A stretch of DNA of 37,429 nt from a bacterium (lineage in GTDB: Bacteria > SZUA-182 > DTGQ01). Below, piece after piece: positions 5,218 to 24,919 of this stretch. Within the stretch, counting starts at the first letter, position 1. Every line of letters begins with the position of its first letter. The stretch spans positions 1 through 37,429 of the forward strand of contig JBFLZW010000021.1 of assembly GCA_040755755.1 (NCBI GenBank), written 5' to 3'. Below the pieces are notes generated by a model. The model was not told where the DNA came from. It was given only the letters and a program-made list of their open reading frames with translations, and did no database searches. A program made the translations under genes and the position numbers.

Positions 5218-6203
5218 GCCAATACGACTCTACGGCCAATCGCCAATCTCAGGAAGCTCCCAAGAGTATTAGCATAATCAAGGGGGAGGATATACCAAAG
5301 GGGAGGATTCCGGTATTCATCCCCCACCGGGAAAATCGCTGCCCTGCGCGCAACGTCCATGCGCCGAAGTTCCACCCTTGAACAAAAGCCCAAAAGCCAA
5401 CCTTAATCCAAATGACATGTACAGAACGAATCATACGGCCAGCTTAATCTCATATCCCTCTGGGGGGCAATGATGCTCTTACACCCTCAAGATAATGCTC
5501 CTGCCTTCTGCGGCGGTAGCCGCTTTGGACTGCGGTAGCACGATACCGCTTTCCTTCTCCTGGATCGAAAGATGATCTGGCGGCCACTTTCCTTGCGGAT
5601 GGCTCAATACTGCCGCTTTTGAAAATAGCCGGGATTACCTTGTAATACCCATTGTAACTTGATCCTTATAACCCTTCTCCACTTCTTATCTTTTTATCTT
5701 CGTGCGCTTCATGTCCCTTCGTGCGCTTCGTGTCCTCTCACTTCCCCTCTGGATAAATTCCCCCATGAAAAGAGGGAATAATAAACCTGTCCGCCCCTGA
5801 ACCTCAAGGGGGAGGAGATTTATTGGCTATTTCCAATAGGGACAGGCTATCCCAGCCATAGGGGAAACGTTAGCTTAACACCTATGCCCTTCAGGGGCGA
5901 GGGAGAAAAACACTGCCCTTGAGCCCCACGCCTGCTCTTAACTTAATACCATTGCCTCTGAAAGGGGGCGAGGGAGTAGAGAGGTCCCCATGTTATCTTG
6001 GAGCCAGTGTCGAATTTGGCCATCACTGAGACATATTGGTTTTTAAAAAAGGAAGTGGCAAAAAAATTAGTCAGGGCTGAACATGATAGCGTTCTGTTAG
6101 AAAATTTACCGATGTATGCATTGTATTTAAGTTGTACCAAAATATAATTCAGTATCGGTATAGTTTTAGTTATATATAACTATTAACTGAAAGAGAAGAA
6201 TGT

Positions 6204-6734
6204 AACTTACGGGGCGAAGCTATAACATTTTGTACAATGATGCCTTTATGATGGTTCCGGTTCCAATGTGAGGGGCCGCCACCATAATGCTCTGGAGTAG
6301 CGGAGCACTCTTGTCCCAGCCCCATTCATCCGGTGGATGGGGTTAGAAATTTCGGCTATCGAAGCAGGTAATCCAGAGAGTACAGCCCGCAGCAAAGATT
6401 CAAGACCATGAGTATTACCTTAACCAAGATGAAACTAAAGAGTTTTACCTCCTTATACGGGCACTATTATGCGGTTCTCCAGAGAAACGGTAAATCCGGA
6501 GCGGCTCTTGGGAAAGACATAAAACCAAGTCATAACCGATTGAATTTTCACTGCTGTTTCATCATGCTGGAAAAAAATTTAAATAAGGGTGAATTCGATA
6601 ACGTTTTATAAAAACTTTATCCGATATATCTGACGTATTTAATTAGTATGAAAATAGAATTAACTATAAGTATAATAGAATATAAAATTTTAGATAAAAT
6701 AAGGAGATGGAACTTACGGGGCGAAGCTATAACA
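6204..6734 (+). repeat. 24-bp perfect direct repeat pair, 507 bp apart
   Basis: The copies are 6204-6227 and 6711-6734. Each begins AACTTACGGGGCG and ends GCTATAACA, and each is preceded by a very AT-rich stretch of about 60 bp. The enclosed segment includes a strong hairpin near 6317-6345 (CATCC/GGATG arms within C and G runs). The function is unknown; it could be the ends of a small element or two leaders of non-coding transcripts. Confidence 0.6.
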
Positions 6735-6810
6735 AATCAGGAGAAGCTGTCACACGCATTCTTGACTGTACGCTCCGAACGTGACACTCGATGAGGATAA
6801 TTAAGGGGAA

Positions 6811-9346: not shown

Positions 9347-9402
9347 GAAGCTTGACAATGACTGTTAAAAATAAGGAGTGTAGCCCTTTTCTGCCCGTTG
9401 CG

Positions 9403-9553
9403 GGCACCTATTCTCCTGCGCCCGCAGGGCATTTGTTCTCCCTCGCCCGTGAGGGCGCTTATACTCCCCTCGCCCGTGGTGAGGGCTCCTATACTGCCCG
9501 TGAGGGCACTTATACTCCCTCGCCCCTCCGGGGAGAGGGCTGGGGTGAGGGGC
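9403..9553. repeat. Cluster of GC-rich palindromes
   Basis: Five successive short inverted repeats: GCCCGCAGGGC, CGCCCGTGAGGGCG, CGCCCGTGGTGAGGGC, TGCCCGTGAGGGCA and a larger CCCCTCCGGGG-centred one. They are spaced by TATACT-containing linkers. Frames through this array are artefacts. It may end transcription of the ABC gene or protect its mRNA. Confidence 0.65.
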
Positions 9554-9654
9554 CTGCTTGGTTAGTATCCTGAAGCTGATGACATTGGCCCTCTGCATGG
9601 AGAGGGTTAGCAACAAGGTGCATAAGAGCATTAATCGCAATTAATCATAAGCGT

Positions 9655-10506
9655 ATGAACCATAAATATATATTCATGGCAGCAGGCAGTGCGGCGGTTA
9701 TATTGCTCATCAAATCAAATGGATTTTGCCAAAGGCGTCAAATACATCCGGTGAATGAGGCGAACCAAGTGAATCAAGTGAATCAAGCGAGTCCAGTGAG
9801 CCCAGCAAATCCAGTGAATCCGGTGCCCCCCCCGGTGTATCCAATGTATCCGGTGACTCCAATGGAAAAGGGTATCACAAAGGGCACTGAGAAGCATACT
9901 CTCATGAAGGTAAGGTCATATATGGATGTTAAGTTCTCCCGCGTGGATAGACAGATGTCAGAATACACGTGCGGCCTGGCTACTCTTGCTACGCTCTTTA
10001 CCTATTATTTCGACCTGCCGGTACATGAGGATGAAATAGCGAACGATTTTCTCAAAAATATCATCATCGAGAAAAGAGGAATCAGCTTTTTGGATATGAA
10101 AAACTTTATCCAGAGTAAAGGGTATAAGGCAGCCGGGTATCAGGTAAACTTATCGGCTCTTCTTATGGTTTTGGAAGAGACTCCGGTGCCAATCATTATC
10201 CATACCATGAGAACGCAGGGGAAGTATGACATGGGCCACTTTTCTCTCCTGCTGGGCTATCGCGATGGCTATTTCATCATAAAGGATCCGGCATTTGGCA
10301 ATCGGGTCGTTTCTGAGGAAAGTTTCAGCTCTGAATTTACCGGCCGTATTTTGATCGCATTACCTGCTGATAAAGATAAAGCAATCTTGGACAAAACCTC
10401 CAAGAGATTGAAATTTGAAATCATTAACGCTCAAAAGTACTTATTAAAGGTGAACTACTTTGAAAAAGCTTACCCTAAACTTAATTATCATTTCTTTACT
10501 TTTTAG
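9655..10506 (+). CDS. Periplasmic stand-alone C39-family (double-glycine type) peptidase
   Basis: Predicted cysteine peptidase that could remove leader peptides after export. Residues 1-25 form a signal peptide or membrane anchor. Residues 34-70 are a proline/valine/asparagine linker with three-residue periodicity (NQVNQVNQ, then PVNPVPPP), made by a 9-nt DNA repeat. The C39 fold spans about 95-240 with the full triad: Cys106 in EYTCGLATL, His195 in MGHFSLLLGY and Asp211 in IIKDPAFG. Most C39 domains are fused to an ABC transporter; here it is separate and faces the periplasm, beside a peptidase-less exporter. It overlaps the next gene by 47 nt. FapD of the Pseudomonas functional-amyloid system is a known C39-like protein encoded near an outer-membrane pore, but homology of the two loci is not claimed. 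Confidence 0.85.
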   Translation: MNHKYIFMAAGSAAVILLIKSNGFCQRRQIHPVNEANQVNQVNQASPVSPANPVNPVPPPVYPMYPVTPMEKGITKGTEKHTLMKVRSYMDVKFSRVDRQMSEYTCGLATLATLFTYYFDLPVHEDEIANDFLKNIIIEKRGISFLDMKNFIQSKGYKAAGYQVNLSALLMVLEETPVPIIIHTMRTQGKYDMGHFSLLLGYRDGYFIIKDPAFGNRVVSEESFSSEFTGRILIALPADKDKAILDKTSKRLKFEIINAQKYLLKVNYFEKAYPKLNYHFFTF

Positions 10507-11344
10507 CATTCCCAAGGCCGCAGTTGCGGCAGAAACTGATGGATCGATATTCAGGTTATCTTTCGAGAAAGGCTCTCTCTACTCTCTGGATTTGAAGTAC
10601 AGAAGCTATGTCACTGAGTCAATCAGATTTAGAGTGGCCCAGCCTACGATAACCTACGGGCATTTTTTCAGCAGAGGGTGGGCATTTTTCACTTGTGCGC
10701 CGTTTATATATTCCAATAAAGAGCTTGAAGATGCCAGAGGGGAGAACGAAGAAAAACAGGTTTATCTTTTACTCGGTAATGTTGTTATCACTCCTCAGTA
10801 CAGCTTCAAATGGAAAGGCAAAACTATCCGGCTTTCTCTGGAGACGCAGTTACCTACGATGAATAGACTCTATGAACTGGAATCACAGGAAACGAAAGCG
10901 AATGGTAACGGTAATGGGCAGGGTTTTATGAATATGAATCAAAATCAATCTAATACGAGTAAATTAGGCAAGTTAAATATAAAAGAAAATAAAATATTAA
11001 CAACGAAACCCTCTATCATCATAAGCCGTGCTTATGATCCCATAATTCATGTAATAAACTTAAGCTTTTGTCAACCCTTATGGAGAGAGGAAAACCGGGA
11101 AGAAATTTACCAATATTGGAATGCTGAGGCCAGCTACGGTACCTATTTTGTTGTGAATGATAAGTTCACCCTTAATTCAGACCTTGGCATTTCAACAGGG
11201 AAAAAGAAAGAAAATTATATTCTTAAGGTCGGGACAACCTTTTTCTCGACCCCAAAACAAGGATTGGATATTTATTTGCTCAATATGTATAACGGATTAA
11301 CCTGGGAAGTTACTGCCGGAATCTCGTACACGATTACGCGGTAA
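10460..11344 (+). CDS. Predicted outer-membrane beta-barrel protein, function unknown
   Basis: A signal peptide (residues 1-24, MKKLTLNLIIISLLFSIPKA then cleavage near AVAAE) is followed by alternating amphipathic strands rich in aromatic residues. The end is a short strand finishing ISYTITR. An Asn/Gly/Gln-rich loop lies near residues 150-165. The start is a TTG at 10460, supported by AAAGGTGAA five nt upstream, giving a 47-nt overlap with the C39 gene. The fold is inferred from pattern, not from a recognised family. It could be a pore or surface partner for the peptide handled by the upstream exporter and peptidase. Confidence 0.68.
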   Translation: MKKLTLNLIIISLLFSIPKAAVAAETDGSIFRLSFEKGSLYSLDLKYRSYVTESIRFRVAQPTITYGHFFSRGWAFFTCAPFIYSNKELEDARGENEEKQVYLLLGNVVITPQYSFKWKGKTIRLSLETQLPTMNRLYELESQETKANGNGNGQGFMNMNQNQSNTSKLGKLNIKENKILTTKPSIIISRAYDPIIHVINLSFCQPLWREENREEIYQYWNAEASYGTYFVVNDKFTLNSDLGISTGKKKENYILKVGTTFFSTPKQGLDIYLLNMYNGLTWEVTAGISYTITR

Positions 11345-11395
11345 TAAGCTGAAATCTCTTATAGAATTACCCAGGAGTAATGCATGGGGCCTCCA

Positions 11396-11435
11396 CTACT
11401 CTCCTCCCCCTTGAGGGGGGATGCTGGGTGGGGGT
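11396..11435. repeat. Short GC-rich palindrome
   Basis: CTCCCCC and GGGGGG arms with TTGA between them, followed by GGGTGGGGG. Same family as 7212-7255 and 16133-16185. Confidence 0.45.
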
Positions 11436-11564
11436 GAATACAAGAACTACCCTTCTGTTAAGGGATGGGAAATAGAGCACACCTTCATATATGAGCAATT
11501 GGTTGAACTTATATAACTTTGTAGGCCATGGTACTCAAACATATATCAAAAAGGGGAGTTAAAA

Positions 11565-12689
11565 ATGGCAGAGCTACAAACACCAGCAACATCTTCGATC
11601 CCGATTAAACATGCCAAAATTCTAAAAGGCCCGCTTCAAATGGCTTTTGATATAACTAATAGATGTAATTTTAAATGCCTTCATTGTTATAACAGAAGTG
11701 GCGAGCACGATAGAATACACGATGAACTAAAGGATAAGGAAGTTATAAAATTTATTAAAGATGTTGTCAAAATTAAGCCTCTAAACCTTTGCATATGTGG
11801 GGGAGAGCCATTATTGAGAGAGGAATTAGTCTATGAGGTCGCAAAGATTCTATCGCGAGAAAACATCATGGTTTCTCTTGTTACTAATGGTTCATTAATG
11901 ACTGAGGACAGAGCAAAACGTCTTCTTGATAGTGGGATCGAAAGAATACAAGTTAGTCTTGATGGTGCGAGCGCTGAAACCCATGAGAGACTCCGTGGAT
12001 TTAAGGGGAGTTTTAAAAAAGTATTAGATGCTATTTCGATACTTAAAAGTATTAATGGTTCCAAGACAATAGTAGGGGTTGCTTTTTGTCCTACCCGGTT
12101 TAACTGTCATGAGTTTGAGAAGGTTTTTTATATGTGTAAGGAACGGGAAGTAGATAGTATTCGTATCCAGCCATTAATGCTTTTGGGCAGAGCTCAATTG
12201 AACATTAGGGGAATAGAGCCAACACCACTACAATATCGTAATTTGATGAGAACGATCAATTCCCTTTGTTATAAATATGGATCAGCATCAATAGACTGGG
12301 GCGATCCTATTGACCATCTTATAAGAAATTCCTCTGTAGCACAACATTGTGTTGTTTTCGTACATATTTTTTCAAATGGTGATATTGCTGCATCACCTTA
12401 TCTTCCAATAGTTGTAGGGAATATAAAAAGATATTCTTTTATCAAATATTGGGATGCAGGGCTGGCTCGAATGTGGGAATCGGAGTTACTAAAAAAATTT
12501 GCGAACAAAATTAAAAGCATTCCGGATTTAGGAAAAGAACATAATGGTTTGCCAATTGTTATGTTTGATGAAGATATTTATGTTGATCTTGTTGATGACA
12601 ACTTATTTAAAGTTAAGGAGTCAACAGTCAGGAGTCAAAATTCAGGAGCAAGAAGAGAAATACAGGCTGGAAGCCTGCCTGGTAATTGA
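11565..12689 (+). CDS. Radical SAM enzyme, probable RiPP maturase
   Basis: Residues 24-210 are a radical SAM domain: the cluster motif Cys34-x3-Cys38-x2-Cys41 (CNFKCLHCYN) and the SAM-binding GGEP at 79-82. The C-terminal part (about 255-305) has the outline of a SPASM/Twitch region: AQHC at 259-262, FSNGDIAASPYLP where the family normally has a G(D/N)xxPC stretch, and VVGNIKRYSFIKYW. The usual extra cysteines are missing, so auxiliary clusters may be absent or reduced. The last 22 residues are encoded by a GTCAGGAGTCA-type dispersed repeat and are probably a late addition. SD GGGAG precedes the ATG. The PqqD/RRE gene and small peptide gene downstream point to peptide modification; the chemistry is not predictable here. 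Confidence 0.88.
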   Translation: MAELQTPATSSIPIKHAKILKGPLQMAFDITNRCNFKCLHCYNRSGEHDRIHDELKDKEVIKFIKDVVKIKPLNLCICGGEPLLREELVYEVAKILSRENIMVSLVTNGSLMTEDRAKRLLDSGIERIQVSLDGASAETHERLRGFKGSFKKVLDAISILKSINGSKTIVGVAFCPTRFNCHEFEKVFYMCKEREVDSIRIQPLMLLGRAQLNIRGIEPTPLQYRNLMRTINSLCYKYGSASIDWGDPIDHLIRNSSVAQHCVVFVHIFSNGDIAASPYLPIVVGNIKRYSFIKYWDAGLARMWESELLKKFANKIKSIPDLGKEHNGLPIVMFDEDIYVDLVDDNLFKVKESTVRSQNSGARREIQAGSLPGN

Positions 12690-12703
12690 AACCCAGCCAT
12701 TTC

Positions 12704-12725
12704 GTCATTCCCGCGAAAGCGGGAG
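12704..12725. repeat. REP-like palindrome
   Basis: GTCATTCCCGCG followed by AAAGCGGGAG. This is a common type of bacterial intergenic palindrome. Relatives are a half copy at about 15284-15301 and a fuller copy at 37374-37399. The rest of 12690-12895 is AT-rich and shows no gene. Confidence 0.6.
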
Positions 12726-12895
12726 CATGTCCTAAACTTCTCTATTCTACTGCTCCTGCAAGGATGGCGATGATGTGGTACATGGAGCCTCTGTGACAGC
12801 CGAAATGAAAATCAAAATCAATGGATAAATTAATTTGATATAAAATTATTATTTTTATCTAAAAATAATTTATTAAATAATGGGAGAAATTAATT

Positions 12896-13807
12896 ATGCA
12901 AAGTTTGGAAAATCATCGCCCTATTTTTAAAAAGGAAAATCTTATATACGAGAGAGAAGAAAAGGATAGTAATTGGACAATTCTTCCTAAGTTTCATCCG
13001 GAGACGAGAGAGTTAATTATAAATCGCACTGCCAAAGAAGTCTTAATGTATTGCGATGGAACGAGGACGATTGAAGAAATAGTAAAAGCCATGAAGGACA
13101 AATACCAAAATGCAGCTATCGAATTAATAAGAAATGATGTACACAATACTCTTGCAAGTTTTTCCAGGTTAATGATTATTCAATGGGAAAATGAAAATCC
13201 TTTTCTTTTTAAAAGAGAAAGAATAATTTCTGATGAAACATTTTTTAGGATTGGAGTTGAAGAGGATATATTAGAAATTAAGGCATTTATTGAAAAATCA
13301 GGCATATCGGAGAAAAAGCTTGAACAGAAAGAAAATTCGGAACTGTTTTTATATAGAAGTTCGCTTATTGATCCAATAAATGAGTATTCAGAAGTAGCAA
13401 TGAGGCAAAAGATGTTTAGATATTATGAAGATTTTTTTATTTATTTCAATAAAAAAGAAATTTTAAGCCTCATATCAATCGCTTTGCCAATGCCTCCTAA
13501 TCAGGCTGCATCTTTTAACTTAGTAATCGCGAAGAAAAGCATCTTAAAAGATTTGCTGAGATATTCTGCGGATAATTTGCCATTTATTTCCGTTTTTAAA
13601 ATTAGAAAAATAAAATTATATGAGGATATGAATGAAAAGTTATCTCCTGAATTCGAAAAAATTTTTGTTGATGAAGGATATAAACAGGAAGGCATACTGA
13701 GGGATGAGTTAGGATTAAATCATGACCTGAGGATCATGAGTTGGATATATGATCCTTTATTTATCGACGAGGTTGAAAAACAAAGAAGCAATATTACATA
13801 TAATTAA
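12896..13807 (+). CDS. PqqD-like RiPP recognition element fused to a GNAT-like domain
   Basis: Residues about 15-100 match the PqqD/RRE winged-helix fold: FHPETRELIINRTAKEVL, then CDGTRTIEEIVKAM and an amphipathic helix ending FSRLMIIQW. Such domains bind RiPP leader peptides and hand them to the modifying enzyme. Residues about 115-295 resemble a GNAT acyltransferase, most clearly in VDEGYKQEGILRDEL followed by RIMSWIYDP, which fits the last strand-helix pair of that fold. The acetyl-CoA loop is not obvious, so activity is uncertain. SD GGGAG lies 9 nt before the ATG. It sits between the radical SAM gene and the candidate precursor, and codon use is strongly AT-biased. Confidence 0.78.
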   Translation: MQSLENHRPIFKKENLIYEREEKDSNWTILPKFHPETRELIINRTAKEVLMYCDGTRTIEEIVKAMKDKYQNAAIELIRNDVHNTLASFSRLMIIQWENENPFLFKRERIISDETFFRIGVEEDILEIKAFIEKSGISEKKLEQKENSELFLYRSSLIDPINEYSEVAMRQKMFRYYEDFFIYFNKKEILSLISIALPMPPNQAASFNLVIAKKSILKDLLRYSADNLPFISVFKIRKIKLYEDMNEKLSPEFEKIFVDEGYKQEGILRDELGLNHDLRIMSWIYDPLFIDEVEKQRSNITYN

Positions 13808-13996
13808 TTGATAGTTGATTACTGTAGTTAGGACATATGTATTCAAACTTTTTATATGAACTGGATCAGAAGTGTCTTACAGATACACCTTAGTAATTCA
13901 TATAGTATATTATCTTCCCGGGGGAGAAGGAGCCTATCAGAAAATTCTGTCTATTTTTTAGAGAGATTATAAAAAATTAGGGAGGAGGTGAAAATT

Positions 13997-14149
13997 ATGG
14001 CATATGAAAGACCTTCAATCGAGGCTTTAGGTGATGCCCAAATGGGTGAAGTAATGGGTGCCTGGGCTTTTGCTCTGGTCTTTGTACCTTTTCTATCTTT
14101 CACCTGGCCATTTGGCACAGGCGGTGTGGGCATATATCTGGTCCTGTAA
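13997..14149 (+). CDS. Candidate RiPP precursor peptide, 50 aa
   Basis: A 50-codon gene with an excellent ribosome binding site (GGGAGGAGGTGA, 6 nt before ATG) and a terminator 54 nt after the stop. The peptide starts MAYERPSIEALGDAQ, which fits the YxxPx(I/L)xxxG leader pattern bound by RRE proteins, best known from lasso-peptide leaders. Residues 15-50 are hydrophobic and aromatic (GAWAFALVFVPF, SFTWPFGTGG, VGIYLVL) with no cysteine, and a Gly-Gly lies at 42-43. No lasso cyclase or protease genes are present, so lasso chemistry is unlikely; the radical SAM and RRE-GNAT genes just upstream are the likely partners. An alternative is a small membrane protein. Confidence 0.75.
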   Translation: MAYERPSIEALGDAQMGEVMGAWAFALVFVPFLSFTWPFGTGGVGIYLVL

Positions 14150-14202
14150 TTGCTGCTTAGAGTTAGTTTGAGCAGCGTGATTTTTGTCTGAATGATAGGC
14201 TA

Positions 14203-14230
14203 AAAACTCTTCTCCCCTGGGAAGAGTTTT
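14203..14230 (+). terminator. Rho-independent terminator after the precursor gene
   Basis: Ten-base stem AAAACTCTTC / GAAGAGTTTT with an 8-nt loop and a 3' TTTT. It would separate the precursor mRNA from the LolA-like gene. Because the A and T runs mirror each other, it may also work on the other strand. Confidence 0.7.
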
Positions 14231-15190
14231 ATGGAGATTAATAATAAGAGAAATACAGGAAAGTATATGAAAAGAAGATCTTGCGGGAAAATGAGTATGG
14301 AGAGTAAAAAGAAATTGTACTTTTCGAAGTCTCAAGAATCTGGTTGGAATTTGAAACCGAGTGCCAGGATATCAATAATAATGCCCCGGTTATCATCAAT
14401 ATCAATACTAATATCGTTAACATTATTAATCCTCTCCTTTTTCACCTTATTACCAGCGAAAGGATTCCCAATGGATTTACCAGACATAACTTACATTACT
14501 CAAACTGCCAGGGAGAAACATGAAAACCTTAAGGCAGCGATACCCAATATAGCACTTGTCCAGGAGTCAATTACCGTTACTGATAAAGATAACATTACTT
14601 CGATTATTAAATCTTTTAAGCAGGGTGAAAAGTTCCGGATGGAGGCTGAAATTACCTCAAAACTTAACCAGGGTAAAAAGGCTATTACCATTTATGATGG
14701 AACAGACTATTGGACTATTTCTTCCGGAGTAAAGACCAGGCTTTCCGAGGACATGAAGAAAAAAATTCAGACTACTGCTGAAAGGAAATGGTGGGACTTG
14801 CTTCCTGATGGGGCGGAGATCAAAGGCATCGAGAAAATTGATGAATCTGAATGTTACCTCATAGCACCTGGTAAGGTATCACCCCCAAAAGTAGAAAAGA
14901 ACTCTATTAACAGACTTTGGATTGATAAAGAAAAACTGATGTTACGCAAAGTCGAATCCATAGGGCTAAAAGGTGAAATTTACATTATGGTTATTTCTGA
15001 CTTTCGCACCATTAAAGACAATATAGAAATTCCTTTTAAGGTAATGACATATAAAGATAATAAGCTCGTGTCAACTGTTACAACAAAGTCTTGTGAAATT
15101 AATAATGGAGGGTTTCCGAGTAAGTATTTTGATGCAAATGCAGAGCAAGATATTAATATTAAGGAGGTTATCAAGGAATTATTTGATTGA
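14231..15190 (+). CDS. LolA-like outer-membrane lipoprotein-sorting family protein
   Basis: The mature part (about residues 85-319) resembles the LolA/LolB-like fold found in proteins named outer membrane lipoprotein-sorting protein. Recognisable segments are KFRMEAEI, TIYDGTDYW, NRLWIDKEKLMLRKVE and the late ISDFRTIKDNIEIPFKVM. The first ATG directly abuts the preceding terminator stem, so translation probably starts later: Met13 (14267, AGGAAAG upstream) or Met51 (14381), which would begin just before the hydrophobic export segment (54-76). These proteins bind hydrophobic acyl or peptide ligands in the periplasm. A role in carrying or resisting the hydrophobic peptide is inference. Confidence 0.8.
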   Translation: MEINNKRNTGKYMKRRSCGKMSMESKKKLYFSKSQESGWNLKPSARISIIMPRLSSISILISLTLLILSFFTLLPAKGFPMDLPDITYITQTAREKHENLKAAIPNIALVQESITVTDKDNITSIIKSFKQGEKFRMEAEITSKLNQGKKAITIYDGTDYWTISSGVKTRLSEDMKKKIQTTAERKWWDLLPDGAEIKGIEKIDESECYLIAPGKVSPPKVEKNSINRLWIDKEKLMLRKVESIGLKGEIYIMVISDFRTIKDNIEIPFKVMTYKDNKLVSTVTTKSCEINNGGFPSKYFDANAEQDINIKEVIKELFD

Positions 15191-15917: not shown

Positions 15918-16025
15918 TTATATGAAACGAAAAAAACCAAAGGGAGTAAAAACTGTAAAGCGCGGAATCCAGATAAAAAATGGAGTAATCAGTATCCCTG
16001 CTTTGATGCTGGTTTTTATGTTCAT
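15918..16025 (-). CDS. Small aromatic peptide A (divergent paralogue)
   Basis: A 35-codon gene, too short for normal calling. Residues 1-15 read MNIKTSIKAGILITP and residues 27-35 read TPFGFFRFI. It shares with peptides B-E the positions Ile3, Thr5, Lys8, Gly10, Thr14-Pro15, Thr27-Pro28, Gly30 and Phe32, without gaps. It is the most divergent copy: its ribosome site is weaker (GGGTGAAA instead of AGGAGGTGAAA) and it lacks the final alanine. It lies last in the array, 373 nt after B. It could be decaying or specialised. Confidence 0.6.
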   Translation of the reverse strand: MNIKTSIKAGILITPFFIWIPRFTVFTPFGFFRFI

Positions 16026-16132
16026 GGTTTCACCCGGTCCTTTTCGTGGTTATCAAGGTTATCTAAGTTATCAACATTACCAAGGGTAGTAGCAAATTCT
16101 TGATCATAAGTATATTCCAGGGTGGTTCCTGT

Positions 16133-16185
16133 ATTCACCTCCACCCAACCTCCCTCCTCAAGGGGGAGGAGTGTAAGGGGAAGTA
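16133..16185. repeat. GC-rich palindromic repeat
   Basis: CCTCCCTCCTC and GGGGGAGGAG arms. Same family as 11396-11435 and 7212-7255, in the spacer between peptides A and B. Confidence 0.45.
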
Positions 16186-16294
16186 ACTAAAAGTAAATAC
16201 CTGCTGAAGGCGAACTTATTACTGTACCTGATCACTGTACCTGGAAAAAACTCTCGTTCACGACATTGCCATGCTCTCAATATCAATATCAATA

Positions 16295-16335
16295 CCCTCA
16301 CGCCGGAGAGAAAATCCATTCTCCAGGCGTGAGGG
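16295..16335 (-). terminator. Strong stem-loop between peptides B and A
   Basis: CCCTCACGCC plus GGAGA pair with TCTCC plus GGCGTGAGGG, giving about 15 pairs with one bulged base and a 10-nt loop. It lies 64 nt after the stop of peptide B. There is no U tract, so it could be a weak terminator or a 3'-end stabiliser rather than a classical terminator. Confidence 0.5.
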
Positions 16336-16398
16336 CATCTTGGGCTAAGGTGAAATTGTTTCCTTTACTCTATAATCTATAACCATACTCCATTAAGG

Positions 16399-16509
16399 TT
16401 AAGCAAAGAAATTGAATAAACCCCACGGGGTTAATCCGAAACAGTTAATGAGAGTCAAACTCCAGGGAGTAACACGAAATCCTGCTTTCAGACTGGTTGC
16501 TATCTTCAT
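16399..16509 (-). CDS. Small aromatic peptide B
   Basis: A 36-codon gene preceded by a near-perfect ribosome binding site (AAAGGAGGTGA, 5-6 nt from ATG). Residues 1-16 are MKIATSLKAGFRVTPW, residues 17-25 are SLTLINCFG and residues 26-36 are LTPWGLFNFFA. Two TPW motifs bracket a variable centre. It is basic at the N-terminus, hydrophobic afterwards, and has no long leader. Ala9-Gly10 with Leu7 at -4 resembles a very short double-glycine type site for a C39 peptidase. No known family is recognised. Confidence 0.8.
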   Translation of the reverse strand: MKIATSLKAGFRVTPWSLTLINCFGLTPWGLFNFFA

Positions 16510-16738
16510 TTTTTCACCTCCTTTCCGTAATATGCCTTCGGTTCATAGACTGGGCCGGAAATGCCCTCTCTAAAACCGCCTCCCGAGAGCATGGGTCTGT
16601 AATACAGACACTCTCTGACTCTCTGAAGGATATAATAACTGGACGTCCTCAGTTCAGAGTGTAGTGTACCTCCTCCGAACAATAAGCCTTTTCATAACCA
16701 AATCAGGTATGCCTCCTGGTTATATTGCATTATCAGTA

Positions 16739-16849
16739 TCAGGCAAATAAATGGAAAAATCCAAATGGTGTTAATGCACTTATGCACCAGATATTCAGAC
16801 TCCAGGGAGTAACACGAAATCCTGATTTAAGGTTGGTTGCTATCTTCAC
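16739..16849 (-). CDS. Small aromatic peptide C (GTG start)
   Basis: 36 codons, starting with GTG; its ribosome site is GGAGA. Residues 1-16 are MKIATNLKSGFRVTPW, 17-25 SLNIWCISA and 26-36 LTPFGFFHLFA. It is a clear paralogue of B, D and E with Ser9 in place of Ala9. A longer in-frame ATG frame reaches 16942, but homology to the other copies begins exactly at this GTG. Like B, it has one cysteine in the variable centre. Confidence 0.78.
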   Translation of the reverse strand: MKIATNLKSGFRVTPWSLNIWCISALTPFGFFHLFA

Positions 16850-16969
16850 TATTGATCTCCTTGTCTCATTGTCTCCTTGTTCCAAAATTACCAACGGCTT
16901 TCGGCATTTCTCTCCAGTCCGGGTTATCTTTGATTTCTCCATTACCAGCCTGTTGAATGGCTTTGTGGA

Positions 16970-17070
16970 GTATCACTCTAATAACCGGCTTCGCTGAAAA
17001 AGCTTGGCAATAGTGGAAAGGCATTTCCACTGCTGCCAGAAAGCCTTTCCACCACTGCTTTACGTGATAC
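16970..17070 (-). repeat. Hairpin-rich spacer unit between peptides D and C
   Basis: Bounded by GTATCAC (16970-16976) and GTGATAC (17064-17070), the latter touching the TAG stop of peptide D. Inside is a near-perfect hairpin at 17012-17031 (AGTGGAAA/TTTCCACT) and further CCTTTCCACCAC half copies. The same arrangement recurs at 17278-17396. These elements would fold at the 3' end of each peptide message. Confidence 0.65.
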
Positions 17071-17180
17071 TAGGCAAAGAAATTGAATAAACCCCATGGA
17101 GTTAACCAATACCAATCCACGATGGTAAGACTCCAGGGAGTGACGCGAAAACCTGCTTTCAGATTTGTTGCTATCCTCAT
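17070..17180 (-). CDS. Small aromatic peptide D
   Basis: 36 codons with ribosome site AAAGGAGGTGA before ATG. Residues 1-16 are MRIATNLKAGFRVTPW, 17-25 SLTIVDWYW and 26-36 LTPWGLFNFFA. It has four tryptophans. Closest to E, differing at four positions (Arg2, Leu18, Tyr24, Trp29). Its TAG stop overlaps the inverted-repeat spacer downstream. Confidence 0.82.
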   Translation of the reverse strand: MRIATNLKAGFRVTPWSLTIVDWYWLTPWGLFNFFA

Positions 17181-17277
17181 GATTTCACCTCCTTTTTTTA
17201 GGATTGCCAAAAGTTTCCGGCCTTTCTATCCAGCCTTTTTGATCTCTCCTTTTAGCCTGCTGATCCGGCCTCGTGGA

Positions 17278-17396
17278 GTATCACCCCTCCACTGAAGAAG
17301 AGCTTATCAATGGTGGGAAGGCCTTCCCACTATTGGCGGAGAGACCTTCCCACCGCCTGGGTGGGAAGGCCTTCCCGCTACTGCCTAAGGTGATAC
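17278..17396 (-). repeat. Hairpin-rich spacer unit between peptides E and D
   Basis: Bounded by GTATCAC (17278-17284) and GTGATAC (17390-17396, touching the TAG stop of peptide E). It holds an 18-base perfect palindrome at 17313-17330 (GTGGGAAGG/CCTTCCCAC) and a near-copy at 17361-17378. Same design as 16970-17070 with different stem sequences, so structure rather than sequence seems kept. Confidence 0.68.
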
Positions 17397-17506
17397 TAGG
17401 CAAAGAAATTGAATAAACCCAACGGAGTTAACCAGAACCAATCCACGATAGTAAAGCTCCAGGGAGTTACCCGAAAACCTGCTTTAAGGTTAGTTGCTAT
17501 CTTCAT
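17396..17506 (-). CDS. Small aromatic peptide E (first of the array)
   Basis: 36 codons with ribosome site AAGGAGGTGAAA before ATG. Residues 1-16 are MKIATNLKAGFRVTPW, 17-25 SFTIVDWFW and 26-36 LTPLGLFNFFA. It is the most upstream copy and lies 831 nt downstream of the ABC exporter operon on the same strand, with a structured leader before it. No database family is recognised; a secreted or membrane-active peptide is the favoured interpretation. Confidence 0.82.
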   Translation of the reverse strand: MKIATNLKAGFRVTPWSFTIVDWFWLTPLGLFNFFA

Positions 17507-17538
17507 AGTTTTCACCTCCTTATCTCAGGGTTTAGCCC

Positions 17539-17591
17539 CAGCTTGGGATTACTCTCAAGCTGAAGGCATACATGCCCCATACTGGGGCATG
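17539..17591 (-). promoter_or_regulatory. Two perfect hairpins in the leader of the peptide array
   Basis: Hairpin 1 is 17539-17562 (CAGCTTG/CAAGCTG, 10-nt loop). Hairpin 2 is 17571-17591 (CATGCCCCA/TGGGGCATG, 3-nt loop). They end about 33 nt upstream of the peptide E start. They might act in attenuation or mRNA stability. I could not match them to a known riboswitch. Confidence 0.5.
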
Positions 17592-18336: not shown

Positions 18337-20622
18337 TTACGGATGGGCAATAACCAGGAGGGTGGGGGCCTGCTCAAGGACATACGCCAGGGCCTGATGG
18401 AGGCTTTCCGGGTCAAGCGCGGCAAAGCTCTCATCGAGAATGATCAGGTCTGCGCCCTGGAGCAGTGCCCTGGCAATGTAGATGCGGCTTTTTTCTCCAT
18501 GGGAAAGCTGCCATCCGGTCTCCCCGACCATCTGCATCAGTCCTGCGGGCATGCGGTCGAGCAGGCTGCCGAGGCCGAGTTTGCGGCAGACTGCTTCAGC
18601 CTCCTCAAGGTCACCGGGCTGCGGCGGCCAGCGCCGGCCCATCAGGAGATTGAAGGCCAGGGTGCCGGTGAGGACATGGTTTTCGTGAAACTGGGGCGCG
18701 GCGGCCACCCGGCGGCGCCAGGTCTGTGTCCCGACGGTTGAAAGGTCAAGTCCCCGCATCAGAAGAAGGCCCGACTCAGGCGCGCGCAGGCCGATGAGCA
18801 GAGAGGCCAGGGTGGATTTTCCTCCCCCGGAGGGGCCTTCGAGCAGGAGCTGGTCACCGGCCCTGATTTGCAGGCTGCATCCGTAGATAACCGGCTCGCT
18901 GCGGCCCCGGTAGCGAAAGGCACAGTTATGCATCTCAATCACCGGATACTGCTCGTGCTGCTCATTCTGTTCATTCTCCTTCGGGGAATGGGGCTCGTGC
19001 GTATGGACAAGAGCTGAGGAAGAAGGCAGCCCGCAGGCTCTGGGGCGGCCTGCTGCATGAAAGAGCGGGGCGACCTGCTTCCAGGCAATGACGGTATCGG
19101 CAAGGCTCATAAGCCCTGCCGGGAGCTTTCCCAGGGCACGCTGGGCGAGTAAGACCCCGGCCAGGCCGACTGCCAGCACCCCCACCGATCCTGCCTGACC
19201 CGAAACAAAGGCCACAGACAGCCCGGCAAGGCCCAGAACCAGCCACCCCGAGGGTATCAGGGTCGTGAGCAGAACTGCCCGTGAATCCATAGCCTTTGAC
19301 AGCTCCAGGTAGCGCTCGACCGCCTGATCCTCTCCATCGTGCCAGTGTTCACGCCGCTCCTGGGCAAGCCTGGTCCTGTGGCCAACCATCCGCTCAACCA
19401 GGTCATGGGTCATTTCAAGACGCATCTTTGTCCATTCCCAGCGGTCGGTGAGGTAGCGCCAGCCCCAGAAAAGGGATATCATCACCCAGACAAGAAACAG
19501 GAGGATATTCAGCCTTCCTCCTGTGCCGATTCCAAGAACCACGGTAGCCGCAATCAGCTCGATGATCATGGCTATGCTGGTAAATCCGCTGTTTAAGGCA
19601 AGGGATTCCAGGGCTTCGGATTCAATGACCCGGCCAAGGAGCTGTCCGGCACCCTGGTGGCTGATCTCTTCAGGCTCAAGCTGCAGGGCACCATACAGGA
19701 GCCGCTGCTTGAGGAGTCCTCCGGCATTGATGGCCAGAGCGCCCTGAAACCAGGTCGCGGCCATCTGGAAGGGGATCATGGTGAATAACAGCAGCGCCCA
19801 GGCCAGGAGCCACCCCAAATCGAGGTTGCCCTGCAATGCCCCCCGCCCTATTACCCACCAGGCAAAGACCATCAGTGCGTATTGAACCGTGTAGGCCCCG
19901 GTGAGGGCACAAAAGGAGCGCGGAAGGCGGGCCTGACGCATCTGCTGCCAAAAGCCTGCGCCCGGCGAAAGCCGCAGAAGCCAGCACCGGGTAACCGGCA
20001 CCGGGCCAAGGTGCTCGGACAGAATGACTGCCCGTGCCTGTGCATGGCGCTGCCTGCTGACCATGACCTCAGCGAACAACCGGTCGATCTCAGGGGCAAG
20101 GTATGATTCCAGCCCCTGGCACAGTATCGCTTGGACTGTCTCAAGGGCGATCCGGTGCACCTTGTGGTCAGGGCCGAGAATGGATAATGGCTGATTTTTC
20201 CGGCCCTGCCGTTTGCCGGGAACAAGGGCCAAAAAACGCGGGGCTTCCTGAAAACCGGGGTGTCCGGGTTGTCCGGGCAGGGGAATGAGTGCCGGGGCGG
20301 CACCCTGCAAAAGCCTGCCGGTCATGTCATAGGTGATATCGATTGGCTCGGCCTCAAGCCCAAGGTAACTGACAGCCGACTCGATCCACTGCTCAAGGGC
20401 TTTACCTGCACCGCTATCGCCCCCGGCGGTTTGGGATTCGGTTTGGAATTGCTGAATAATGCTCTGCGGCGGTCCGGGCATTTCGATCGGCAGGGGCTTG
20501 AGTGAGCTTTTTCTGGCCAGAATTTCCAGGGCTTCGCCTAACCGGGAGACCGGCCAGGAGAAAGCCTCCGGCTCCGAAAAAATTTTTCCAGTTAATTTCT
20601 GGCTTAATTTCTGATGTTCCAT
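18337..20622 (-). CDS. ABC transporter subunit (second ABC of the C39 export operon)
   Basis: 761 aa. An N-terminal non-membrane region of about 230 residues is followed by membrane segments (about 235-510) and an ATPase domain. Walker A GPSGGGKST is at 596-604, signature LSHGEKSRIYIARALL from 706, Walker B LIILDE at 726-731. The protein stops one residue after the switch histidine (IAHP), so the last strands that normally follow are missing. Its ATG abuts the stop of the C39 transporter gene, so they are coupled and probably form a heterodimer. The three-gene set recalls NHLM/NHLP-type peptide export systems (HlyD, ABC1 with peptidase, ABC2), but exact family membership is not proven. Confidence 0.87.
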   Translation of the reverse strand: MEHQKLSQKLTGKIFSEPEAFSWPVSRLGEALEILARKSSLKPLPIEMPGPPQSIIQQFQTESQTAGGDSGAGKALEQWIESAVSYLGLEAEPIDITYDMTGRLLQGAAPALIPLPGQPGHPGFQEAPRFLALVPGKRQGRKNQPLSILGPDHKVHRIALETVQAILCQGLESYLAPEIDRLFAEVMVSRQRHAQARAVILSEHLGPVPVTRCWLLRLSPGAGFWQQMRQARLPRSFCALTGAYTVQYALMVFAWWVIGRGALQGNLDLGWLLAWALLLFTMIPFQMAATWFQGALAINAGGLLKQRLLYGALQLEPEEISHQGAGQLLGRVIESEALESLALNSGFTSIAMIIELIAATVVLGIGTGGRLNILLFLVWVMISLFWGWRYLTDRWEWTKMRLEMTHDLVERMVGHRTRLAQERREHWHDGEDQAVERYLELSKAMDSRAVLLTTLIPSGWLVLGLAGLSVAFVSGQAGSVGVLAVGLAGVLLAQRALGKLPAGLMSLADTVIAWKQVAPLFHAAGRPRACGLPSSSALVHTHEPHSPKENEQNEQHEQYPVIEMHNCAFRYRGRSEPVIYGCSLQIRAGDQLLLEGPSGGGKSTLASLLIGLRAPESGLLLMRGLDLSTVGTQTWRRRVAAAPQFHENHVLTGTLAFNLLMGRRWPPQPGDLEEAEAVCRKLGLGSLLDRMPAGLMQMVGETGWQLSHGEKSRIYIARALLQGADLIILDESFAALDPESLHQALAYVLEQAPTLLVIAHP

Positions 20623-23589
20623 CTAAAACTCCCCCTGTGCTGAAAGCATCCTGTCCGCCGATCCCCTGCTCTCCTCCCACCCGTCAACAGCAGCTTCTTC
20701 GATCACCTGTCCTGCATCGAGGCGCAGCCTGCGCCAGGCCGGACCGGACCAGAAACCTCTTCTGACCCTCTCTTCCACTTCCGCTATCGCCCGGTAGCGT
20801 GAATCGGGCCTGCTGGCAAGGTCAGCCGGAGCACCGGCCTCAACAATCCGCCCCCCCTCCATTACCAGGACCTGGTCAAAGCCGATGGTCTCGCCTACAT
20901 CATGGGTAATGCACAGGAGCGTGGCCTGCGGCCAGAGCTTTCGGCAGTTCGAAAGAAGGTCCTGCCGCTGCCGGTAATCGAGCCCCCGGAATGGCTCATC
21001 CAGGATCACCAGCCGCACTCCAGGCCGGAGCATTCCCCGGGCAAGGCGAACCCGCTGCCCCTCACCGCCTGACACCAGGACTCCGCCCTCGCCGAGCCGG
21101 GTCTGGAACCCGGCTGTCAGCCGTCCCAGAACACTGTGCAGGCCAGCCGATTGTATCGCCTGTCCGATCGGCAGTGATGCATCGGGGGCAATTCCATAAT
21201 AGAGGTTTTCGAGCAGGGAGCGGTTCCAGAGCTGCACCGAAGGATCAATCCAGGCCGTTTCACGGCGAAGCCGCTCAAGCCGGTCAGCGGTGAGGGGGCA
21301 TCCGTCAACCAGGACCCGTCCGCTGAAGGGGCGGTGCCAGCCGAGAAAAATGCCGACCAGCGTGGATTTTCCTGCACCTGAGCGGCCAACGATGGCCACA
21401 TGGCTTTGCGGCTCGATGGCCAGGTCAATGTCAGTGAGGATGATCTGCCCGGCTGCCCGCACACCCACGCCTTCGAGAAGAAGGGATACTCCCCGTCTTA
21501 CTTTCACTGTTCCCGGCGGATAGCCCGGACTATCATCAGACTCCTGCAATTCCCCGCCCTGAATATCTGCTTTGCCCTGCGGAGCCGCCGTTTCCCCGGC
21601 GGTTGGTTCTTCGGGAGCGCCGAGAGGTTCAATCAGGCGCAGGGTCACGTTGCGATGATTGGGGTACTGCCGGGCCATCGTGGCCACCATCTGACCGAGA
21701 TTTGGCAGATTCAGGGCCCAGTACCCCAGTAAAAGGACCCCCCCGGCATCACCTCCGTGTGCCAGATAGCTGAACAGGAGCCATGCAGCCAGCCCAAAGC
21801 CGATGAAGGACAAAAGGCCCTCGATGGCCACTACCGCGGCCTGGAAGCCAAAGCCTGCATTGGCCCACTCGACCAGCAGGTCCTCATGCTCACGGCGGAC
21901 GGCCCGTTCCGCACTGTGAGCACGCACTGCCACCAGGCCAAGCATTACATCGAGGTAGAAACGGCTCAGGGCCCCGCCGTGGTTCCGGACCCGGAGATTT
22001 CGCTCAGCCAGGTAGGGGTTGACGATAAGGGGCAGGCCGACGCTGAGCAGGGTGGTCAGCAGGGCAATCAGCGCACTCTGCGGGTATATCCAGGCAATTG
22101 CAGCCGTAGTCAGGGCAAGCTCGAAGGTCGTGCGGATGAATTGGCCGCCAAGGGTTGGCAAAAGCCGCAGAGTTTGTACACTGTGGCTTCGCTCGGCCAT
22201 ATCCGAGGTAAGGCGGCTTTGAAAGTAGCGGTCATGGAGCCGGGGAATTTTTTCCATGAAGGCCAGCCGGAGGCGGGACTCAAGATGCCGTCCAAGGCGC
22301 AGTAATTCTGCGGCAATCGGAAGCTCCAGGAGAAGAGCCGCAGTTGCAAAAACGAGAATCGCGGCCATGAATTCGAGCCGCTGCCCGGCCAGGCCAAGCT
22401 CCCGGCCAAGGTCAAAAAGCCCGCGAAACAGCAGGGCCTGGATAATGACACTGGTAGCTGCCATAGCCAGGGCGACAATGAGAAGCGGCGCAGACAGGAA
22501 ACCGTCGTGAGCCAGGAGCTTCAGAAGCTCACGTCCGGCCTTGAGCGGCCGCTCATGGATGGCTGCTTCGAGCTCGACCGAAAGAGCAGCGGGACCTGCC
22601 CCGCTATCCGGGCTGCTATCCGGGTTGGCGGTACCCGGCTGAACAGAAGCGCCTCGATCCTGGCTTTCGGGTATACTATCCTGCCCCTCAACCGCAGTGT
22701 AGAGGGCCATCCTTCCTGCTGCCGCCTGCCTGCCAAGTGCCCGGACGAGCACAGCGCCGCGCAGGAAAAGCTGTTCTTCACCCCGCATCCCGGCCGGAGC
22801 GGGCTGAACTGACCAGTAGGCAGCCGGAATGACTCTTGCCATCTCCTGTGCCGCCTCTCCCCGCCCGCGTTCAAAGAAAGCCCTGATCACGCCATGAGCC
22901 TGCCGTCCCGGTCTCAGTGCCCCTGATCTGACCAGGGAATCGACCATCCGGCAGGCCGCATCCAGGGTGCCTATCGGCTGCCAGCCAGGGTCCTGGAGCG
23001 CCTCCTGTACGAGCAGGATTATTTTCCTCCGTGATAATCCAAGCCTTGCCAGCCTGTGGCAGAGGGCCCCCAGAAATTCGGGCGTCCCTGCCCAATCCCG
23101 CCAGGCCGCAGCCGGAACCGGCATGGTATGAACATACAGCTCATGGAGAAGCTGCCTGCATCTTGGCCACCTTCTGCCGGTAGCCGGATCCATGACCTGA
23201 GCGATGCGGCCATGAATCCGCCAGATGACAATAAAGTGCGTCAGCCCGCTTGGGCTGCACACAGCGGCAATGGCGGGCAAAGCCCTGGCCTGGGGGAGCA
23301 GCAGGTGATCGACCGGCAGCATGATCTGTTCTGCTTCGAGCCCCAGTTGCATGGCCACCTGTTCCAGGGTGTTCATGGAGGTGCCATCGACATCGGTCTG
23401 GCACGCCTCACGGAGTCGGCCATAGCTTACCCGGATGCCAAAACCTTCAAGGAGGCACTTCAAAGATGCTGGCCCGCAGTCCATGCTCGATGTCTGGACG
23501 ATTTCCGGAATAATCAGGCGCCGGCGGTTTCCTGGGGCATGCCGGGGGGAGGAAGGGCTGGCCGTGCTGGCGGCGCCGTCAGCGGACAT
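20623..23589 (-). CDS. C39 peptidase-containing ABC exporter
   Basis: 988 aa, longer than the usual 700-720 aa for peptidase-containing exporters. The C39 domain (about 28-150) has the full triad Cys38 (SSMDCGPASL), His118 (LTHFIVIW) and Asp134 (VMDPATG). About 200 residues of unknown, mostly soluble sequence (150-355) come before the membrane domain (about 360-660). The ATPase has Walker A GRSGAGKST (735-743), signature VSGGEGQRVRLARG, Walker B LVILDE and His896. A tail of about 70 residues follows the ATPase core. It should cut a double-glycine type leader and export the rest. It overlaps the HlyD gene by 11 nt. Codon use is GC-rich, unlike the peptide genes. Confidence 0.92.
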   Translation of the reverse strand: MSADGAASTASPSSPRHAPGNRRRLIIPEIVQTSSMDCGPASLKCLLEGFGIRVSYGRLREACQTDVDGTSMNTLEQVAMQLGLEAEQIMLPVDHLLLPQARALPAIAAVCSPSGLTHFIVIWRIHGRIAQVMDPATGRRWPRCRQLLHELYVHTMPVPAAAWRDWAGTPEFLGALCHRLARLGLSRRKIILLVQEALQDPGWQPIGTLDAACRMVDSLVRSGALRPGRQAHGVIRAFFERGRGEAAQEMARVIPAAYWSVQPAPAGMRGEEQLFLRGAVLVRALGRQAAAGRMALYTAVEGQDSIPESQDRGASVQPGTANPDSSPDSGAGPAALSVELEAAIHERPLKAGRELLKLLAHDGFLSAPLLIVALAMAATSVIIQALLFRGLFDLGRELGLAGQRLEFMAAILVFATAALLLELPIAAELLRLGRHLESRLRLAFMEKIPRLHDRYFQSRLTSDMAERSHSVQTLRLLPTLGGQFIRTTFELALTTAAIAWIYPQSALIALLTTLLSVGLPLIVNPYLAERNLRVRNHGGALSRFYLDVMLGLVAVRAHSAERAVRREHEDLLVEWANAGFGFQAAVVAIEGLLSFIGFGLAAWLLFSYLAHGGDAGGVLLLGYWALNLPNLGQMVATMARQYPNHRNVTLRLIEPLGAPEEPTAGETAAPQGKADIQGGELQESDDSPGYPPGTVKVRRGVSLLLEGVGVRAAGQIILTDIDLAIEPQSHVAIVGRSGAGKSTLVGIFLGWHRPFSGRVLVDGCPLTADRLERLRRETAWIDPSVQLWNRSLLENLYYGIAPDASLPIGQAIQSAGLHSVLGRLTAGFQTRLGEGGVLVSGGEGQRVRLARGMLRPGVRLVILDEPFRGLDYRQRQDLLSNCRKLWPQATLLCITHDVGETIGFDQVLVMEGGRIVEAGAPADLASRPDSRYRAIAEVEERVRRGFWSGPAWRRLRLDAGQVIEEAAVDGWEESRGSADRMLSAQGEF

Positions 23590-24814
23590 TGTGTCCTCCG
23601 GTGACTGATCCAGCCGTTGCAGCGGACCCGGCAGGTCCGTCCATCGAGCCGAAGCTTTTCGAGGGGCGCGTCAGCAGCTTTCCCACAAGCCGCAGTACCA
23701 GCTCTGCCGGTGTGGTTCGATCCACCTCGACTTCAACCGAACCTGACAAACCATGCTGGAGAGGGATAGAAGAGACAAGGTTCGGGTCAAGAGCAAGCTC
23801 AGCCCTGACCTGCCCATCCCTGACTTCACTGGCGATCCTGGCGACCCTGGCTGGAATGCAGCCATATTGGGTCCAGGGGAAGCTGTCCAGGCGAAGCTGT
23901 GCCCGTTGACCGGGCCGGATGCGGCCTACCGTCTCTGATGCAGAAAAAAGAGCTGTAATGATAAGCCGCCCCGGAGTGAGAATGGTTCCACATCTTTCCC
24001 CCTCATGGATTACCGACCCGATCCTCAGATCCTTCATGCCATCAATTTGCCCGGCCACCGGTGCCCGAATTGAACCCTTGCCAATCTCGCCGAAGAGCCG
24101 CTCGATAGTCAGGGTCTTGGCCGCTATTTCTCCCTTGACCATAGCTATCTGGCGTTTGATCTGCTCTCTGCGCACCCGGCTTTCACTCTGACGGTTCTTT
24201 TCCTCCCATTCGAGTTGATGGGCACGAAGTTTGAGCGCCTCAGCCACCTCCTGGCGCTTTTGCATCTCTGCTTTTGTACGGAGGAAATCCACCTCGGACA
24301 CAATGCCATCAGCCCGCAGGACCTCCATCCGCTTGAATTCGTCCTCCAGCAGCACAAAGTCCACTTCCGCTTCCCGCTGCCTGGCCCGGGCCTCATCAAT
24401 GGCTTTTCGGGCTATCTGCTGATACTCATAATGTGCCTGCCTCTGAGCCTTCAATTCTCTGAAAAGCGCATCGAGCTGCCGGCTCAGGGCATCCACCTGA
24501 GAGCGCTCCTCAGCAACCATCAGGTGCTCCGAGGCCGTATCCAGTTCAACCAGAAGGTCGCCAGGCTGCACCTTCCGGCCCAGCACCATGTGATTGGCCA
24601 CAACCCGCCCCCCGATGGGAGCGTCCAGCGAATAGGCCGCCAGGTCCAGCTCTATCATTGCTGCCCCGCTCACCTCATACAGGGTGACTCTGGCCGCCAA
24701 AAACCAGATTGCCCAGAGAACCAAAACCACAGCGGCAAACACCAGGCACAACACCGACCGCCGATGGCTGTCGGCCCGAAGCGCCCGCAGGGAACGGGAA
24801 AAAAACCTGGACAT
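23579..24814 (-). CDS. HlyD-type membrane fusion protein of the export operon
   Basis: Periplasmic adaptor linking the inner-membrane ABC pair to an outer-membrane channel. It has one membrane segment (about residues 20-42), a split lipoyl-like domain (DAPIGGRVVANHMVLG and IRAPVAGQIDGMKDL), a long coiled coil (about 100-235) with many Glu, Arg and Gln, and a C-terminal beta-barrel part. I choose the ATG at 24814 because GGAGG lies 5 nt upstream; an in-frame TTG at 24826 would add four residues. First gene of the operon; no TolC-like gene is present in the window. Confidence 0.9.
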   Translation of the reverse strand: MSRFFSRSLRALRADSHRRSVLCLVFAAVVLVLWAIWFLAARVTLYEVSGAAMIELDLAAYSLDAPIGGRVVANHMVLGRKVQPGDLLVELDTASEHLMVAEERSQVDALSRQLDALFRELKAQRQAHYEYQQIARKAIDEARARQREAEVDFVLLEDEFKRMEVLRADGIVSEVDFLRTKAEMQKRQEVAEALKLRAHQLEWEEKNRQSESRVRREQIKRQIAMVKGEIAAKTLTIERLFGEIGKGSIRAPVAGQIDGMKDLRIGSVIHEGERCGTILTPGRLIITALFSASETVGRIRPGQRAQLRLDSFPWTQYGCIPARVARIASEVRDGQVRAELALDPNLVSSIPLQHGLSGSVEVEVDRTTPAELVLRLVGKLLTRPSKSFGSMDGPAGSAATAGSVTGGHNVR

Positions 24815-24919
24815 CAGTGCCTCCAATGCGTGGATTGAGGATATTTTGGTTAACGAGAATATGCCGCCAGGATTATTTTAGCAATTTTTCTTGGCAACTA
24901 TTGTTATATCAAGATCGGC

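Follow-up and report, generated by a model that had tools for sequence, protein, structure and literature searches.

A tandem array of short aromatic peptide genes with a predicted ten-residue export leader beside a C39-ABC exporter

Described peptide exporters and the locus

Class II microcins and bacteriocins are unmodified peptides exported by C39-ABC transporters together with HlyD and TolC proteins. Known microcin leaders are longer than the candidate leader described here and end in GG. PCATs such as PCAT1, which are associated with double-glycine leaders, carry a C39 domain with Cys, His and Asp residues fused to an ABC exporter. NHLM/NHLP systems (TIGR03796, TIGR03797 and TIGR03794) have a three-gene layout of a C39-ABC protein, a second ABC protein and HlyD. 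Double-glycine sites also occur in class II and III microviridin precursors and in many graspetides (PMC13039773; see also PMC8939145). In one graspetide exporter, it is the C39 domain that cleaves after the double-glycine site (PMC13039773), and the leader-cleaving enzyme of some graspetides has been called unknown (PMC8939145).

We analyzed a 37,429-nucleotide stretch of bacterial DNA (the window) in which five short minus-strand ORFs (15918-17506) lie just downstream of same-strand genes for an HlyD-type adaptor and two ABC exporter subunits, ABC1 and ABC2. On its predicted features, we call this system a PCAT-exported peptide type. Like PCATs, it combines an intact C39 domain and an ABC exporter in one protein, and the predicted cut follows the small-residue pair [AS]G, with a hydrophobic residue at -4. 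It differs from them in its basic leader of ten residues ending in KAG, its use of two different ABC subunits plus HlyD, the long insert between the C39 and membrane domains of ABC1, and the end of ABC2 after the H-loop. The NHLM/NHLP models share the three-gene layout and are among the nearest named peptide-export models, but the window proteins score far below their curated cut-offs (166 of 853, 111 of 709 and 30 of 156 bits), and no NHLP or Nif11-type leader is seen. The peptides resemble class II microcins and bacteriocins in appearing unmodified and in their predicted export by C39-ABC, HlyD and TolC proteins, but their cargo and leader sequences are unrelated to those of that group. Finally, in Sorangium and Planctomycetota, some precursors of double-glycine graspetides and microviridins have our leader motif where leader and core meet, and their loci contain the same exporter. 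The window peptides, by contrast, lack the PFFARFL docking site and the TxKYPSD core, and no ATP-grasp match was found among the scanned neighbors.

The five peptide genes and their relatives

The sequence-only reading had described five tandem paralogous mini-genes on the minus strand, and all five are present. Four encode 36 amino acids and the fifth encodes 35. Their products are given here with a slash at the predicted cleavage site: gene 1 (17396..17506), MKIATNLKAG/FRVTPWSFTIVDWFWLTPLGLFNFFA; gene 2 (17070..17180), MRIATNLKAG/FRVTPWSLTIVDWYWLTPWGLFNFFA; gene 3 (16739..16849), MKIATNLKSG/FRVTPWSLNIWCISALTPFGFFHLFA; gene 4 (16399..16509), MKIATSLKAG/FRVTPWSLTLINCFGLTPWGLFNFFA; and the divergent gene 5 (15918..16025), MNIKTSIKAG/ILITPFFIWIPRFTVFTPFGFFRFI. 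Gene 1 matched the peptide profile at E 2e-23, gene 3 was recovered by the profile, and genes 2, 4 and 5 were recovered both as ORFs and by the profile. Gene 3 starts with GTG rather than ATG. Strong ribosome sites of the AGGAGGTGA type precede genes 1, 2 and 4, a fair site (AAGGAGA) precedes gene 3, and the site before gene 5 is weak (CCGGGTGA). The alignment confirmed that I3, T5, K8, G10, T14, P15, T27, P28, G30 and F32 are the same in all five copies. The description of both ends as fixed holds for four copies and fails for copy 5, because this copy is a distant paralogue with 40% identity to copy 1 (67-89% for copies 2-4). Residues 11-36 are hydrophobic (hydropathy 0.55-1.43), weakly charged and 23-48% aromatic, and they contain two [TS]P motifs. 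As had been supposed, the peptides belong to no recognized family: no Pfam or NCBIfam model matched above its cut-off, and the best, DUF3902 (E 0.02), fell below its own.

The copies are separated by spacers of 200-370 bp. GC-rich inverted repeats (GGGAAGGCCTTCCCAC...) lie between genes 1 and 2 at 17310-17380, and terminator-like hairpins such as GCCCTCACGCC...GGCGTGAGGG occur in other spacers; the arrays of the related genomes G001 and G003 contain similar hairpins. The region upstream of the array is partly conserved in three genomes. A hairpin directly upstream of the gene 1 ribosome site (17537..17564, minus strand) can be aligned across these genomes and has two pairs changed on both sides; since only three sequences are available, this evidence is weak and at most suggestive. 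Elsewhere in the window, a 2.2 kb stretch without genes contains two plus-strand copies of AACTTACGGGGCGAAGCTATAACA (about 6200-6230 and 6710-6740), spaced by about 510 bp and with no Rfam match.

A profile built from the five peptides found no further copy in their own 5.26 Mb genome. Homologues were found outside the locus in two related genomes. G001, from the same genus, carries four tandem copies on contig 83 (best E 8e-22), the last of which (L035:1865-1972) is the counterpart of gene 5, likewise last in its array. G003, from another genus of the family, carries three copies on contig 429 (best E 4e-9). A fourth ORF in the G003 array (L036:5482-5598) keeps the first ten residues and has an unrelated tail (MKVKTNIKGG-KAFRLM...). 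A widened profile added nothing convincing over 290 genomes, and no peptide relatives were found in IMG/VR or plasmid records. We rejected weak profile matches in distant genomes (E 0.002-1) as noise consisting of fragments or sequences with internal stops.

Substitutions among the copies concentrate at third codon positions. Together with the homologues beyond the locus, this dependence on codon position bears out the view of the array as translated paralogous mini-genes, and the five ORFs are real, homologous genes. Pooled pN/pS was 0.20 for residues 2-10, 0.00 for residues 11-17, 0.56 for residues 18-25 and 0.44 for residues 26-35; the value for residues 18-25 is rough because synonymous changes there are near saturation. 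With an overall pN/pS of 0.35, positive selection on the peptides was rejected. Selection is purifying and relaxed in the center, and the diversification of the center proposed earlier was not supported.

The adjoining exporter and the leader motif

The array is explained through a search with the neighboring exporter, which the sequence-only reading had missed, and not through a peptide search. The exporter genes comprise a HlyD-type periplasmic adaptor (23579..24826, minus strand; Pfam HlyD_3, 4e-14), ABC1 (20623..23589, minus strand), which consists of a C39 peptidase (Pfam C39, 3.8e-20), a long insert and an ABC exporter, and ABC2 (18337..20622, minus strand), a second ABC exporter subunit. 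Aligning the C39 domain of ABC1 with PCAT1 over 105 residues showed that the catalytic Cys, His and Asp are all kept. ABC2 ends right after its H-loop (LLVIAHP). In nearly every related locus with a whole gene, the alignment stops at query residue 760-761, and this unusual end after IAHP or IAHT is conserved across all lineages observed. TolC-type proteins are encoded in the window's genome.

The three genomes of the family that encode the exporter are those that encode the peptides, and neither exporter nor peptides were found in G002, a further genome of the family, or in the rest of the class. The ABC1-ABC2-array order in G003 is the same as in the window, so that an exporter with a catalytically complete C39 domain is linked to peptide genes in two genera. 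G001 has its exporter on contig 156 and its array on contig 83, where an amidase gene adjoins the array; because other genes flank both, the two are unlinked.

We compared the exporter to those of other bacteria. Of 386 genomes, two distant ones, G091 and G256, have a match to most of the C39-plus-insert part of ABC1. A LanB dehydratase gene adjoins the exporter in G256, and G091 also contains a 21-residue ORF beginning MKIRTGIKAG. Scanning 84,980 GTDB genomes with the ABC1 N-terminus (an alignment of five C39-plus-insert sequences) yielded 80 loci with the exporter. They represent six or more phyla and include Chloroflexota, Acidobacteriota, Planctomycetota, Myxococcota, Pseudomonadota and delta-proteobacterial lineages. 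The HlyD-ABC1-ABC2 order is retained in most of them. Contigs of metagenome-assembled genomes may be mis-binned, and several matches come from isolates (Sorangium, Microbulbifer, Ramlibacter and Minicystis). The annotation of one RefSeq plasmid names the exporter only generically. On a Piscinibacter gummiphilus plasmid (L193), the exporter adjoins a likely RiPP cluster (DUF692, TfuA-like, carbamoyltransferase-like and MoeB), and a small ORF of 57 amino acids contains LKAKVNVKLG, a loose form of the leader motif.

Small ORFs beginning with a motif like that of the window peptides lie beside many of these exporters. We scored [KRNQ][IVLFMTY]x[TS]x[ILVMCF][KRQ][AGS]G near the ORF start, summarized as MK[IVT][KR][TS]xx[KR]AG, and found 85 matches beside the exporter in 35 of the 80 loci, whereas 12 permuted motifs matched 1-7 times each. 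In about half of the loci, the flanking DNA examined contained no motif. When the motif was searched in DNA form, 20 of 79 foreign loci contained a total of 56 sites, and the reversed motif had no match. A ribosome-site-like core precedes 54 of 64 sampled motif ORFs. A matrix derived from 40 distinct leaders of foreign loci, none of them from the window's genus, ranked the window ORFs 1-5 of 2134 start codons. Genes 1, 5, 4, 3 and 2 scored 22.8, 21.8, 20.4, 18.2 and 16.6 bits, in that order, and the next start scored 5.1. The array ORFs of G001 and G003 likewise ranked first. Motif ORFs also occur away from the exporter in 8 of 18 exporter genomes (24 sites against 2 control sites; 11 ORFs in Minicystis rosea), most of the 18 having been picked for the lack of a motif ORF close to the exporter. 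The pattern is at chance level in about 380 exporter-less genomes, where a stricter motif gave three matches that do not resemble leader peptides and were rejected as unconvincing.

Because the motif is found beside foreign exporters and the foreign-leader matrix picks out the window ORFs, residues 1-10 look like an export leader, and a leader cut after residue 10 is the simplest reading. The earlier view, in which a single peptide keeps its ends and diversifies at its center, was not supported: the first ten residues look like a leader common to otherwise unrelated peptides, and the rest would be cargo. The window leader has [AS]G at -2/-1 and keeps the hydrophobic residue at -4, with a hydrophobic residue at -8 instead of -7 and none at -12. 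Its shortness, basic character, lack of hydrophobic residues at -7 and -12, and AG in place of GG are points against an export leader. The exporter loci that have no motif nearby and the separate positions of exporter and array in G001 also speak against the export reading. None of the library models holds the motif, and a search of the open-access literature for TNVKAG, TGVKAG, SNVKAG or similar sequences found no description of it; matches to VKAGG or NHNQT were unrelated. Thus, we provisionally regard the leader as undescribed in the libraries and open-access papers searched.

Cargo, alternative readings and significance

We consider it likely that the array encodes precursors of small secreted peptides that carry an export leader and leave the cell through the adjoining C39-ABC system. 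Residues 1-10 (MK[IV]xTxx[KR]AG) would form a minimal export leader and residues 11-36 the cargo. The C39 domain of ABC1 would recognize the leader and cut behind its Ala-Gly (or Ser-Gly) pair. The aromatic cargo of 25-26 residues would be pumped out of the cell by ABC1 and ABC2 together with the HlyD adaptor and an outer-membrane protein of the TolC type. We infer that ABC1 pairs with ABC2 and that the window peptides themselves are exported. No modifying enzyme is conserved beside the array, so the cargo probably either lacks modification or receives it from enzymes encoded elsewhere. A membrane-active, bacteriocin-like cargo is our tentative preference over a signal or envelope role because the cargo is long, hydrophobic and rich in aromatic residues.

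The peptides could instead be secreted pheromone signals, in which case those of the window would be aromatic variants of unusual length. The sequences that follow the motif in foreign peptides are unrelated and include SVNWG, PELQIHG, RAVWGA, cysteine-containing tails, aspartate-rich tails and NHNQT repeat units. Many of these cargos are only 5-10 residues long and occur in multicopy arrays, in favor of this reading; L115 has three copies of SVNWG, and in Microbulbifer rhizosphaerae (L136:3085-8520) about 24 leader sites of the MKTKSQVKAGPELQIHG type run in one direction upstream of the HlyD gene. The window cargo, however, is much longer and hydrophobic, and no receptor or regulator gene is conserved beside the array across all three genomes, and we regard the signal reading as unlikely. 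In some foreign loci (L099, L139, L162 and L163), single ORFs contain several KVKTNVKAGG...NHNQT-like units in polyprotein-like leader-cargo repeats. Because it is repeated within one chain in such proteins, the motif may not always be removed. Sequences of this type adjoin exporters, yet none was matched in plasmids.

KxTxxKAG might also be a docking site for an unlinked modifying enzyme rather than a leader for export and cleavage. RiPP enzymes often bind leaders, and the exporter adjoins LanB, ATP-grasp and DUF692/TfuA clusters in other genomes. Against this reading, motif loci carry differing or no recognized modifying enzymes, and the exporter alone is common to them. Graspetide precursors, moreover, retain their own docking site besides the motif. 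In a microviridin-type precursor from Sorangium (NCBIfam NF033738, E 2.5e-14), whose locus also contains an MvdD-type ATP-grasp gene, the motif lies between the PFFARFLE docking site of the leader and the TxKYPSD core, and this core must be cut from its leader at about the position of the motif, which favors the export reading. We find the docking reading improbable.

Still harder to sustain is the idea that the peptides stay in the cell as hydrophobic membrane peptides, for example as a type I toxin array (Ibs/Tis-like) with a positive N-terminus, one membrane span and long untranslated spacers. The small size, tandem arrangement, hydropathy and spacer lengths of the array fit such a model, but its N-terminus matches the leader of hydrophilic peptides beside the same exporter elsewhere, a positive-inside signal needs no Thr5, [AS]9 or Gly10, and the presence of the peptides tracks the exporter. 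A toxin array of this type would be expected to have an antisense RNA gene opposite each copy; there is no Rfam match in the window and promoters are not above chance, though a novel antisense RNA would escape Rfam.

On the plus strand at 7469-15190, the window contains a second peptide-maturation-like cluster with an ABC exporter, a stand-alone C39 peptidase (FapD/FilB-like), a radical SAM protein without a SPASM match, a PqqD-fused protein and a LolA-like protein; no obvious precursor gene was seen. Its RiPP-like components and its position within 1-8 kb of the array might suggest that it modifies the array peptides, but this is very improbable. The cluster is on the opposite strand, and it falls outside the conserved system. 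We rejected the radical SAM protein (11565-12689) as a partner: neither G001 nor G003 encodes a close relative (at best about 30-42% over part of the length), and the 80 exporter loci contain none either.

We return to export through the C39-ABC system. With somewhat less confidence than for the array itself, we favor the broader model that an unnamed HlyD-ABC1(C39)-ABC2 secretion route, present in at least six phyla, recognizes a "KAG" leader of ten residues. Its cargo would include RiPPs, graspetides among them, as well as unmodified mini-peptides in arrays that reach about 24, some of them with only 5-7 residues following the leader. The aromatic peptides of the window would be one lineage-specific cargo family of this route. 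If this is true, a large pool of bacterial mini-peptides, secreted and mostly unannotated, could be located directly with one ten-residue motif. Many of these peptides would be below the size that gene callers detect, and they would come from soil and aquatic phyla in which few bacteriocins or signals are known. A leader-removal and export step would be indicated for some graspetides, and the motif would represent a compact cleavage and secretion tag.
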